Shown piece by piece: positions 22,022-61,353 of a DNA stretch of 64,000 nucleotides. Below the pieces are notes generated by a model. The model was given only the letters and a program-made list of their open reading frames with translations, was not told where the DNA came from and searched no databases. Where the stretch lies: positions 4,911,001 to 4,975,000 of the forward strand of contig NZ_CP059732.1 in the NCBI RefSeq assembly GCF_014117325.1. The letters run 5' to 3'. This DNA comes from Spirosoma foliorum (GTDB lineage: Bacteria; Bacteroidota; Bacteroidia; Cytophagales; Spirosomataceae). Each line of letters opens with the position of its first letter. Position 1 is the first letter of the stretch. Made by a program: the position numbers and the translations under genes.

Positions 22022-22621
22022 TTAGAGCGACACATTTTCGAGCGTAACATAACGCTTGAGGTTGCTCATGGCTCCGAAAATCAAATTGTAAACAGACTGA
22101 ATGTTAATGTGCATGAGAGCCGAAATTTCTTCGTTACTCATATTTTGAAAATACCGCAGGTGAACGGCTTCACGCTGACGGCGGGGAAGTTTTTCGAGGG
22201 CCTGATGCAGGCAGTCGTTCATAAACGAATCTTCCTCATGGGCAATCAGTAAATTTTCGTGGGATGGATCAGCGCCAGGAAGCGTGTCGCCAACGCGTCG
22301 GCCATTTACCATATCATCCTGACTCACCAATTTCTGTTCGGCCGTTAGGTGGCGAACCAGCTTACGTTTAATCGAAGCCATCAGATAAAAACGTACGGAA
22401 GTCGTTGGTCCGATGGTCGTGCGGTGCTTCCAGAGCTCAACAAATAGATCGTGGATGCAGTCTTTAATCAGCGCCCGGTCGGTAGCAAAGTGGGCGCAGT
22501 AATGGTAAAGGGTTTGAACATAATTTTGGTACAGTCGGGCAAACGCATTTTCATCACCGCTACGAAACAAATTCCAGAGAGTTTCGTCGTCGGGTCCGAT
22601 TTGAGTACGGGAGCGAGCCAT
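22022..22621 (-). CDS. ECF-type RNA polymerase sigma factor
   Basis: 199 residues. The sigma-2 region (NAFARLYQNYVQTLYHYC to DCIHDLFVELWKHR, about 25-70) and sigma-4 region (EKLPRRQREAVHLRYFQNMSNEEISALMHINIQSVYNLI, about 142-182) are clear. It belongs to the Bacteroidota ECF group that often controls SusC/SusD systems, but no FecR-like anti-sigma gene or SusC/D pair is next to it here, so its target is not visible. It has its own terminator and stands alone between rarA and ade. Confidence 0.9.
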   Translation of the reverse strand: MARSRTQIGPDDETLWNLFRSGDENAFARLYQNYVQTLYHYCAHFATDRALIKDCIHDLFVELWKHRTTIGPTTSVRFYLMASIKRKLVRHLTAEQKLVSQDDMVNGRRVGDTLPGADPSHENLLIAHEEDSFMNDCLHQALEKLPRRQREAVHLRYFQNMSNEEISALMHINIQSVYNLIFGAMSNLKRYVTLENVSL

Positions 22622-22716
22622 GATAGAGAGGGTAAAGGTTAGGAATAGCCTTGGAGTGTGTAAACTTACCCATAAAAAATAGAATTTAAAAAAGTACTCA
22701 AAAATTTTTTTTATGG

Positions 22717-24540
22717 TTACTGATTTCCCGTTTGAATAGATACAAAAGTGAACCTTTTCCCATCAAACAGTCCCTTATCGCTTAATTTTAGGGCTGGGAT
22801 AACCAGCAGAGCCATAAAGGATAAGGTCATAAATGGTGCAGCAAGTGTACTTCCTAATTCTTTCTTCGCGAATTGGTCCAGCAATGTATATTGACCGGCT
22901 ACATCATACCCATCTACATCCGTCATCAGACCAGCTACTGGTAACGAAAGCAAGTGCGACTCAGGTGTAGTCGTTAAATGCAAAAACTCACGGCGGCTCA
23001 TCACTTCATCATCATGCTCATGCGGTTTCGTACCAGCAACGGCCGATAAGCCACCCCGAGATTCGATCACCAAATTAACCGCCTTGCAAATACTGTCATC
23101 ATCACACCCAACCACTGTAATATTGTGCGAATCGTGACCAACCGACGAGGCAATAGCGCCGTGTTTTAAGCCAAAGTTTTTGATAAATGCAATCGCAGGT
23201 GGCGCATCCTGATACCGATTGACAACCGCCATTTTCAGAATATCCTGTTCTAGATCAGGTACGATTTGATTGTTCTCTAGTTTAGGTTCAAGATGAAGTT
23301 CATTGGTGATGAGCTGGCCGTCGAGAGCTTCGATGACGCGGATTGTACTTTCCCTCACCGACCCGTCGGACCGCCCCGGCCCCTCTCCCAAAACGGGAGA
23401 GGGGTGTAGAACTGCCCGATTTTCTCCCCTCTCCAGTTCTGGGAGAGGGGCCGGGGCGGTCCGACGGGTCGGTGAGGGAAAGGTCACCACAAAGTCCTCC
23501 GGCTTCTTAGGCGAACAACTAAACTGATTAACATGCTCGCTCCGCAAATCCGGAATATTCGACTTACCATCTTCGGCAACAATACCCCCATTAATAACCG
23601 TTTTTTGAACCGTGAACGACTGTAAATTATCAACCACGATATAATCGGCAGGGTCACCTTCACGCAACAGACCAACTGGTAATCGATAATGCAGGACGGG
23701 ATTCAGGCAAGCAGCCCGAAGTACATTCCAAAGCGAATGGCCTTTTGCCAAAGCGCGTACAACGAGTTGATTGATATGCCCTTCCGCCAATGTATCCGGA
23801 TGCTTATCGTCCGAGCAGAACATAATTTGCTGAGGAAACTCAGCCAGCAAGGGAATCAGAGCCTCGAAATTACGGGCGGCACTGCCTTCTCGAATAAGAA
23901 TGTTCATACCCCGTTGCGCCTTATCAAGACCCTCTTCATAGGTAAAGCATTCATGGTCGGTAGTGATACCAGCATCAATGTATTGCTGGGCATCGTCGCC
24001 CATTAAACCCGGTGCGTGGCCGTCAATAGGCTTATTAAATGCATTGGCCAAGGCGATTTTAGCCATTACATCGGGGTCCTGGTTTAGTACGCCAGGGAAA
24101 TTCATCATTTCAGCTAAATAGCCTATTTCCTTTAATGCCAGCAGTTTTCGGACATCCTTAACACTAATAGTAGCACCCGCCGTTTCGAACGTGGTAGCCG
24201 GAACGCAGGAAGGTGCCCCAAACATAAATTTGAAGGGAACACGTCGAGCCTCTTCAATCATGTAATGTACGCCCGCAACGCCAAGCACATTCCCAATCTC
24301 GTGTGGGTCCGAGACGGTAGCAACCGTTCCATGAACAACGGCCAGCCGCGCAAACTGCGGTGGGGTCAGCAACGAGCTTTCTATATGAACATGGGCATCT
24401 ACAAAACCCGGCAATACATAAGATTCGCCCGAGCGTTCAGGCCCAAGGCGCTGAATCTCGTTAATCCGCCCATTTTCGACGGTGATCGAGCCATAAAAAA
24501 TCGTTTGGTCAAAGAGATTCAGGATATTAGCCGTGATCAT
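22717..24540 (-). CDS. ade: Adenine deaminase with an in-frame palindromic insertion
   Basis: 607 residues. Amidohydrolase that converts adenine to hypoxanthine; the metal-binding start of the barrel is GFVDAHVHIESS, and DGHAPGL and CSDDKHPDTL hold further ligands. The C-terminal domain has SSVGHDSHNITVVGCDD. Residues about 353-398 (TFPSPTRR... to ...SVREST) are encoded by a 135-bp palindrome at 23348-23482 and do not look like part of the enzyme; without them the length would be about 562. The insertion falls between EDFVV and IRVIEALDGQ. Gene lies 3 nt downstream of the acyltransferase gene stop, so the two are probably one operon. Confidence 0.92.
   Translation of the reverse strand: MITANILNLFDQTIFYGSITVENGRINEIQRLGPERSGESYVLPGFVDAHVHIESSLLTPPQFARLAVVHGTVATVSDPHEIGNVLGVAGVHYMIEEARRVPFKFMFGAPSCVPATTFETAGATISVKDVRKLLALKEIGYLAEMMNFPGVLNQDPDVMAKIALANAFNKPIDGHAPGLMGDDAQQYIDAGITTDHECFTYEEGLDKAQRGMNILIREGSAARNFEALIPLLAEFPQQIMFCSDDKHPDTLAEGHINQLVVRALAKGHSLWNVLRAACLNPVLHYRLPVGLLREGDPADYIVVDNLQSFTVQKTVINGGIVAEDGKSNIPDLRSEHVNQFSCSPKKPEDFVVTFPSPTRRTAPAPLPELERGENRAVLHPSPVLGEGPGRSDGSVRESTIRVIEALDGQLITNELHLEPKLENNQIVPDLEQDILKMAVVNRYQDAPPAIAFIKNFGLKHGAIASSVGHDSHNITVVGCDDDSICKAVNLVIESRGGLSAVAGTKPHEHDDEVMSRREFLHLTTTPESHLLSLPVAGLMTDVDGYDVAGQYTLLDQFAKKELGSTLAAPFMTLSFMALLVIPALKLSDKGLFDGKRFTFVSIQTGNQ
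23348..23482. repeat. Family B palindrome inside ade (two perfect 43-bp arms)
   Basis: Arms at 23348-23390 and 23440-23482 are exactly complementary over 43 nt; the 49-nt centre contains another GGGAGAGGGG / CCCCTCTCC pair. The total of 135 nt is 45 codons with no stop in the ade frame. A related but degraded copy lies in the intergenic region at 61143-61231 (shared CCCGGCCCCTCTCCC core). Confidence 0.92.
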
Positions 24541-24543
24541 AAA

Positions 24544-25755
24544 TTAGATTCGGATAAATAGGTTACGGCGGTACATCCACCAGAGAATTAGATAAAAAAT
24601 AGCCAGCGTAGCGAAGCCAATTAGCAGTGGCTCATAGGTGGCCCCAAACACCAGAAAAGGCCCATGCCCCAGGTGGGTATAGAAGGATTTGATTATGAAC
24701 TTGTCGATAAGGTGCACCAGGCAATAAATCGCGATGGAGTTCGTGCCCACCACAACCAGCGGAAACGCCCATCCCCGACGACCGGCCACATCGATAACAC
24801 CATAAAAGAAAGCGAGCAGCCAAAAGCACCAGCCACCACTGAATAATACCCACGCTGGTGTCCAGATTCGTTTCACAATAGGGCAAATTCCGGTCACATG
24901 CAGCAAGATACCGCTAGCCAGCCCTATGGCGCCGGCAATCAGGAAGTATTTCAGAATGTCGCGCTGTGTCATTCCAGACCGCAACCATAAACCCGCCTGC
25001 AACCCTAGCAACATTGTTCCGAGGGTAGGAATGAAACTAAGCGTAGCATAACCGCCACCGTTAAACAAAAATGGATTTTCGCGAGGGAACAGGTTCAAAA
25101 ACCAGGTATCAAAAGCCCAGGCCAGGTTACTATTCTTATTAAAATGGGCCATCAATCCAGTATAATGCTCTGGCCAGTCTGCCGGAACACCCACGGCGCT
25201 ATAATCAAAAGCTATGCCATTCGGGACAGGATAAAGCAAAAATGCTAGCCAATAACCCACTAAAATTACACCTAACGCAATCCAGGCGGTTCGAGCTTTA
25301 GAAGCACTTCCGATTAAGAATAGAAATGTATAACCCATACCGATTTGGGTCAGCGTATCCTCAAACGTAAATCTCGTTTGATCGGCATGTGTAGATCGCA
25401 GAAAAATTCCGAGCAAAATTAAAATCAGCGACCGCCGAAACGCATGCCACAACTGCACAGAAAACGATTGCCCTTGTTTAACCCGGCTCGCAATTGAATA
25501 CGGGAGAGCCACGCCAACCAAAAATGAAAAAGAAGGCTGAATCAGATCGTGCAACGAACAACCAGCCCAGGCAACGTGGCTCTGGTGGTGAGCTAGAAAT
25601 GCCCAGAAACCACTATCCGGAAAAGCTTCGTGGAGATGATCAAATTGCAGAATTTCGGCGGCCATCAAGGTCATAACAAAACCCCGATAGGCGTCCATAG
25701 ACATTAGTCGACCAGCCAGGAAGCCGGTTTTGTTTACATCAGAAAGTGGAGGCAT
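24544..25755 (-). CDS. HGSNAT-like multi-pass acyltransferase (DUF5009/COG4299)
   Basis: 403 residues with about ten to twelve hydrophobic segments. The N-terminal [13 protein letters not shown] and the following [19 protein letters not shown] are hallmarks of the heparan-alpha-glucosaminide N-acetyltransferase-like group, which moves acetyl groups across membranes to sugars. The bacterial substrate is unknown. A paralogue is present at 59903-61129. Here it is upstream of ade in a likely operon, a pairing whose logic is not obvious. Confidence 0.8.
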
Positions 25756-61129: not shown

Positions 61130-61142
61130 TTTACCCTCATGT

Positions 61143-61231
61143 ACCCTCCCCCGACTCCTCTCCCAAAACAGGAGAGGGGAGTTCAATTGTCTTTTTTCTC
61201 CCGTGTTCGGGAGAGGGGCCGGGGGTGAGGG
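61143..61231. repeat. Family B palindrome (intergenic copy)
   Basis: CCCTCCCCCGACTCCTCTCCC and GGGAGAGGGGCCGGGGGTGA arms, degraded in the left arm, with the same CGGGAGAGG inner motif as the copy inside ade (23348-23482). Confidence 0.8.
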
Positions 61232-61353
61232 AACCCGCTATTTTCAAACCACCTCGCTTTCTGATTAGTTAAAATCGCGTACTTGTCTGGCAGAACAATG
61301 CCCTGTATAAGTCAGCTCTATTCACAATAGTCGACTAACACATCTTCATCCTC

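Follow-up and report, generated by a model that had tools for sequence, protein, structure and literature searches.

In-frame pairs of a TM-type repeat at common linker sites of conserved Spirosoma genes, as seen from the adenine deaminase gene

Several families of small palindromic repeats are close to the element described here; the statements on them hold for the accessible parts of the sources cited. The G/C-rich intrastrand-triplex motif TM (TMECO, earlier PIT) occurs in more than 260 genomes, and the 23 TM copies of E. coli MG1655, in which five inverted pairs combine a type A and a type B unit, are always intergenic; the triplex is stable in vitro, stable triplexes in vivo found no support, and a link to genome instability was drawn (PMC4666352). 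In Enterobacter sp. 638, a palindromic repeat of the form CCCTCTCCCXX(X)GGGAGAGGG was described in one hundred copies, often in duplicate or triplicate (PMC2869309). REPINs, or REP doublets, are made of two inverted REP-like units forming one hairpin (PMC3116915), and REPs and their dimers were reported inside ORFs of many species, flexible linkers being proposed as tolerant places and two Xanthomonas species carrying different REPs at about the same site of recB (PMC3733652). In-frame palindromes are known from Rickettsia (RPEs; PMC10969869) and are cited as losing their arm identity over time in PMC6649704, a study of nematomorph mitochondria in which perfect coding palindromes led to the proposal of arm conversion by template switching.

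The element studied here lies in the adenine deaminase gene (ade) of a Spirosoma genome made of a single 8.85-Mb contig, of which positions 4911001-4975000 form the window, i.e., the whole stretch of 64,000 nucleotides that was analysed. We take G000 to be this genome, G003 to be S. arboris HMF4905 and G032 to be S. telluris HMF3257. The features of the locus, in window positions, are the following:

22717..24540, minus strand: ade, adenine deaminase, 607 aa, host gene of the element (ORF; Pfam Amidohydro_1 41-321, Adenine_deam_C from 409; TIGR01178; PDB relative 3nqb)
23348..23482, no strand assigned: palindromic element, inverted pair of TM-like units, in frame, ade residues ~353-398
23348..23390, plus strand: left exact 43-bp arm (self-comparison of the palindrome)
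23440..23482, minus strand: right exact 43-bp arm (self-comparison of the palindrome)
23356..23376, plus strand: left 21-mer with the extra arm block, exact copies at pabB of G003 and pbpC of G022
23454..23474, minus strand: mirrored 21-mer in the right arm (exact 21-mer search)
23381..23403, plus strand: left TM-type hairpin, CCCTCTCCC-AAAAC-GGGAGAGGG (genome 4934381-4934403)
23427..23449, minus strand: right TM-type hairpin, one stem base altered (genome 4934427-4934449)
23405..23425, no strand assigned: 21-nt spacer separating both units
61136..61239, no strand assigned: intergenic relative, TM-like family (covariance model match; element also at the orthologous S. arboris place)

An earlier sequence-only reading had described a palindrome of 135 bp whose two 43-bp arms match exactly, and its extent, arms and coordinates were all reproduced on re-measurement; the intergenic relative which it had placed at 61143-61231 is also present, within the model match listed above. 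Compared with its reverse complement, the palindrome has 15 deviating positions out of 135; two base pairs of the inner stems account for 4 of them, and the central 21-nt spacer, flanked by the two inverted units of 57 nt, accounts for the other 11. The minus-strand palindrome has a folding energy of -79.1 kcal/mol with DNA parameters, and none of 200 shuffled sequences was as stable (z = -16.6). In an Rfam scan of 22600-24700, none of the nine listed matches reached the gathering score, and these sub-cut-off matches, which resemble chance hairpins, were set aside.

The ade ORF scores 568.8 bits against the TIGR01178 adenine deaminase model (cut-off 472.5) and remains open across the palindrome over its 607 aa. 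The proposal that the palindrome is an in-frame addition at a loop is borne out, the frame being intact and the insert lying in the interdomain loop. This is illustrated by an AlphaFold2 model of Ade built from 36 sequences (mean pLDDT 85.2), in which residues 360-393 of the insert, between the amidohydrolase part and the C-terminal domain, have a pLDDT below 50. Such a very low model confidence can fit a disordered loop, with the sparse aligned sequences covering the insert as an alternative cause. The net gain at ade of G000 amounts to 120 nt and not 135 (201 vs 81 nt between the same landmarks, the near relatives G022 and G032 having an empty site), because the natural length of the linker varies. 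A second variable linker of Ade, at residues ~505-520, differs strongly in length and composition among relatives and shows low confidence at 507-514.

Judged by its sequence, the ade element is a face-to-face pair of the published motif TM (CCCTCTCCC-loop-GGGAGAGGG-CCGGGGTGAGGG). The hairpin CCCTCTCCC-loop-GGGAGAGGG is exact in the left unit and one stem base off in the right unit. The contiguous third strand CCGGGGTGAGGG (or TTAGGG...) is absent from the G000 ade copy, where an extra 15-nt block, mirrored in both arms, interrupts it; it is unbroken in the S. arboris ade copy, whose matching unit is 42 nt long against 57 nt in G000. The commonest unit form in G000 is CCCTCACCCCCGGCCCCTCTCCCAAAACGGGAGAGGGG, and its other strand, CCCCTCTCCC-GTTTT-GGGAGAGGGG-CCGGGGG-TGAGGG, corresponds to the E. 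coli TM in Table 1 of PMC4666352. As far as the accessible text of that paper goes, the two repeats are alike in the stem CCCTCTCCC/GGGAGAGGG, in the third segment CCGGGG(G)TGAGGG, in forming inverted pairs and in having two types each (CCG and TTA in E. coli, CCGG and TTGG-like in Spirosoma), whereas the Spirosoma pairs are often alike (both of the CCGG type), several of them stand in frame in genes, and the third strand is split in ade. The earlier statement that no description was known in this group does not hold for the repeat as such, which is already in print as the TM family (PMC4666352), and REPs in ORFs were reported from many species in PMC3733652.

The hairpin core is also that of the Enterobacter sp. 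638 repeat, which, in the available text of PMC2869309, stands at gene 3' ends with a presumed role in termination, whereas the Spirosoma element is in frame within genes. With the intragenic GTAG/CGTC REPs, as partly described in PMC3733652, it shares the occurrence of REPs and dimers in ORFs, the proposed tolerance of linkers and the presence of differing REPs at one site, as in recB. The Spirosoma units start with CCCTCACC, which contains CCTC, one variant of the terminal tag of these REPs (GTAG or CGTC, also TGTC/CCTC), while by eye their stem and tail seem not to fit the GTAG/CGTC description; occupation of the same site in several genes across the genus and mirrored arm subtypes are further differences. 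By description, the ade element is like the RPEs in that a palindrome was inserted in frame into a conserved ORF whose orthologues have empty sites. It differs from them by its host group and by its perfect arms at a site that may be old, given the loss of arm identity mentioned in the accessible part of PMC6649704. In the nematomorph palindromes of the same source, both arms encode conserved protein, whereas the Spirosoma element is a linker insert.

A covariance model made from nine copies gave, at E <= 0.001, at least 46 strand matches in G000 and at least 62 in S. arboris, the listed places mostly matching on both strands, and at E <= 1e-9 the model matches at least 25 of the 36 genomes of the genus; all these are minimum values, because first-look candidates were scored in part (150 and 108 per genome) and only listed matches were counted, and the E-values are rough. 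The reading frame was then considered for 18 places of G000 plus ade and for 31 places of S. arboris. In G000, 5 of the 19 places are in frame within long ORFs, namely ade, pbpC (over the TIGR02073 cut-off), pabB (over that of TIGR00553), a TrmN-like tRNA methyltransferase gene whose profile score is below the model cut-off, and a sulfatase-like ORF, also below its cut-off, with the element near the ORF start. The search for further coding genes with the element, which had been suggested from the ade locus, therefore yielded additional in-frame hosts in G000. In S. arboris, 4 of the 31 places are in frame (ade, pbpC, pabB and a YdiJ-type FAD/FeS dehydrogenase gene below its model cut-off), the copy L154 being left out of this count as its open frame is short.

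The linkers of orthologous genes were then scored, a site with at least two family words being called filled. Filled sites were found in 2 of 29 genomes for ade, 2 of 30 for pabB, 3 of 30 for the TrmN-like gene, 3 of 29 for the YdiJ-type gene and 7 of 29 for pbpC; some of the 36 genomes gave no locus for some genes. From the separate comparison of translated linkers, L233 (pbpC) and L304 (YdiJ-type) were dropped, since neither yielded an ORF bearing the motif. As a control for the word count, 1 of 1223 off-site 150-nt windows scored filled (four genes, ade excluded). The two filled ade sites are those of G000 and its sister S. arboris, and 25 of the 29 ade sites examined are free of any family word. 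Most relatives examined thus have an ade site without the element, in line with the empty site expected by the sequence-only reading; the opposite case, in which the 45 residues would be an old, non-palindromic loop of orthologues, was looked for and did not occur. Sites with a single word were seen at ade of G001 and G019, pabB of G011 and G023, and pbpC of G006, G008, G019, G020 and G035, and by eye some of these (e.g., pbpC of G006 and G035) are elements too. In G032, the pbpC element is present, although cut off in the word count, and the frame is broken just upstream of it; this break beside a G run may be a sequencing error. The pbpC linkers of G013, G015, G017 and G027 are short, with SDRRT- or PTRR-like peptides which resemble remnants of the extra block.

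In a tree of five genes from 32 genomes, computed on sequences with linkers removed by a quick method without bootstrap, G000 and G003 are sisters (SH-aLRT 99), followed by G022 and G032. On this tree the filled sites need one change each for ade and pabB, two for the YdiJ-type gene, three for the TrmN-like gene and four for pbpC; for ade the number rises to three if G001 and G019, with single-word sites of decayed appearance, are also taken as filled. Eight orthologous places are occupied in both sisters (34 loci of G000 against 31 of G003), the pairs L022/L160 (820 aligned bases) and L008/L176 (763) being excluded from this count. At ade, the arms are perfect in both genomes, over 43 bp in G000 and 45 bp in S. 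arboris, and the 15-nt block is found in both G000 arms and in neither G003 arm. The reverse is seen at pabB, with the block in both G003 arms and in neither G000 arm, and at pbpC the two genomes carry differing subtypes. The TrmN-like gene, too, holds other versions of the element in relatives. Meanwhile, fourfold sites differ between them at 140 of 255 positions in ade (55%), 188 of 347 in pbpC and 88 of 178 in pabB. The chance that 43 pairs remain intact by passive decay since one shared ade insertion is ~1e-15 under a neutral Jukes-Cantor model, to be read as an order of magnitude only because the fourfold divergence is near saturation. By this rough neutral estimate, passive keeping of perfect arms since one shared insertion in ade would be excluded. 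Perfect ade arms in both sisters together with near-saturated silent sites therefore call for arm renewal, element replacement or repeated insertion. Perfect arms had been taken as a sign of either recent insertion or arm correction: perfect arms do not by themselves point to a recent insertion, as the sister's arms are also perfect despite this divergence, and arm renewal stands as one option.

Arms are more similar within than between elements, both in G000 (0.843 vs 0.762, with 1 of 2000 shuffles as high) and in G003 (0.868 vs 0.816, with 0 of 2000). No significant difference in arm perfection was observed between genic and intergenic elements (p = 0.075) among 41 elements (16 of G000, 25 of G003), after removal of those which the cutting rule could not split (w61, L155, L157 (genic), L172, L174, L176, L179, L186, L187 and L188). 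Many intergenic elements have unequal arms, so that correction is not universal, and by eye the orthologous intergenic pair L007/L153 differs only by unmirrored changes on one side. At pbpC, the right half of the G032 element has 30 identical nt in common with G000 and its left unit 21 nt (family consensus) in common with G003, while G001 and G021 have 31 nt in common; such long common stretches indicate that the pbpC site is at least partly inherited. The ade spacers of G000 and G003 reach homology ranks of 13 of 66 from one side and 2 of 66 from the other, so that their homology is not demonstrable and descent from a single insertion is not shown by them. Spacer homology was dropped as a descent clock because spacers carry the family consensus, and whole-element length modulo 3 (38 of 41 scored) was uninformative because element ends differ from insertion ends.

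The reading that fits best is that the in-frame site persists while its palindrome is renewed, through copying of one arm onto the other or through exchange with other copies, and we give it about an even chance of being right. According to this reading, an inverted TM/REP-type pair would have inserted into the linker between the Ade domains before G000 and S. arboris split, in the simplest case by a single event; its in-frame translation would presumably add a flexible loop of ~45 residues, which Ade would tolerate. The ade site would have stayed occupied since the split while the DNA of the element is renewed, either when hairpin formation by a strand at the replication fork lets one arm serve as the template for the other (template switching), or when the arms recombine with other genomic copies and take on their subtype; members of the family may also reach new genes, in frame, and intergenic places. 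Such renewal would explain the perfect arms of both species as well as the mirrored differences between them, and the mosaic pbpC element of G032, with its right half close to G000 and its left unit close to G003, is as expected from single-arm exchange. A bolder form, which we put forward tentatively and consider rather doubtful, is that some linkers of Spirosoma proteins are permanent landing pads, where an in-frame palindrome is kept at one codon position through speciation and undergoes repeated rewriting of its DNA. Hairpin-templated copying would change the two arms jointly, and a coding sequence would thereby evolve as a palindrome that corrects itself.

The persistent, renewed site has to be weighed against the possibility that several species independently acquired recent insertions at one codon, owing to a site-preferring putative mobilising enzyme or to the tolerance of such linkers only. 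Such insertions would directly predict perfect arms, spacers without demonstrable homology and differing subtypes at one place. The YdiJ-type linker, with a TM pair in G003, 40-bp arms in G011 and a 27-bp perfect palindrome in G030, agrees with them, as does the count of three changes at ade when the decayed-looking sites are included. However, ade, pbpC and pabB sites are common to two genomes with only 5 (of 19) and 4 (of 31) in-frame elements, a coincidence that would not be expected by chance under uniform insertion, and the 30 nt and 31 nt in common at pbpC are also against it. We regard independent insertion as less likely than the renewed site, but the spacer result, the unequal arms, the pair L007/L153 and the non-significant genic contrast leave it a substantial share. 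The YdiJ-type linker (L280, G000:C1:8399989-8402889; L281, L292, L295, L296) is hypervariable, and the palindromes that it contains in species other than S. arboris include, besides those of G011 and G030, inverted repeats in G000, G022 and G034 that by eye are purine-rich.

The two inverted REP-like units forming one hairpin, with units of 57 nt and a spacer mostly of ~21 nt, recall the REPINs of PMC3116915, as far as its accessible text goes, and G000 has ten Y1_Tnp matches; a strict REPIN moved by a RAYT (Y1-type) transposase of this genome nevertheless seems improbable, as no TM-like unit flanks any of the 9 scanned Y1_Tnp loci of G000 (~1.5 kb on each side). The intragenic position of Spirosoma copies is a further difference from REPINs. 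One Y1_Tnp gene, at G000:C1:4299255-4299580, was matched in two pieces, one of which has an in-frame TAG. Selection of the hairpin or peptide because it serves, e.g., to pause translation or to link domains could account for elements in the pbpC linker of 7 of 29 genomes plus G032. It is still less probable, given that the peptide reading frame, subtype and length vary between species and that most relatives examined are free of the element at ade, pabB and the TrmN-like gene. Palindromes are prone to assembly errors, and an artefact of this kind is very improbable here: the genome is a single contig, in the separate S. arboris assembly this place is likewise occupied by an in-frame element, and the frame is intact.

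Within the limits of the literature search, what seems new is the combination of common sites and mirrored arm differences with in-frame TM-type pairs, present in several conserved genes within a single genus. Among the matches listed from the open-licence literature, as represented by titles and the starts of abstracts, TM-type repeats within Spirosoma genes are undescribed, which is weak evidence of absence, and the accessible part of PMC12306157 makes no mention of Spirosoma. The persistent, renewed site would join three topics that are usually kept apart: REP-like repeats that form triplexes, Rickettsia-type palindromes in coding frames, and the homogenisation of arms. With orthologous copies in frame and many sequenced genomes in the genus, it can be tested directly whether palindromes of bacterial genes are renewed in place, and the same copies offer a test of the amount of foreign loop that a conserved enzyme accepts.

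As for the extra block, its exact 21-mer occurs in ade of G000, pabB of G003 and pbpC of G022 and nowhere else in the four genomes searched; several near matches within conserved-looking coding sequence were, on inspection by eye, not taken as elements. L160 (G003:C23:717721-717833) has a different mirrored extra block, GCAACGGCGGACCGC, in both arms at another position of the unit. The extra block is also found in other S. arboris palindromes: one of 82 bp at ~1077-1158 of L312, lying in frame within an ORF that has histidine-kinase sequence, and another at ~1073-1140 of L313, in an ORF resembling nitrate reductase, both ORFs being named by eye.
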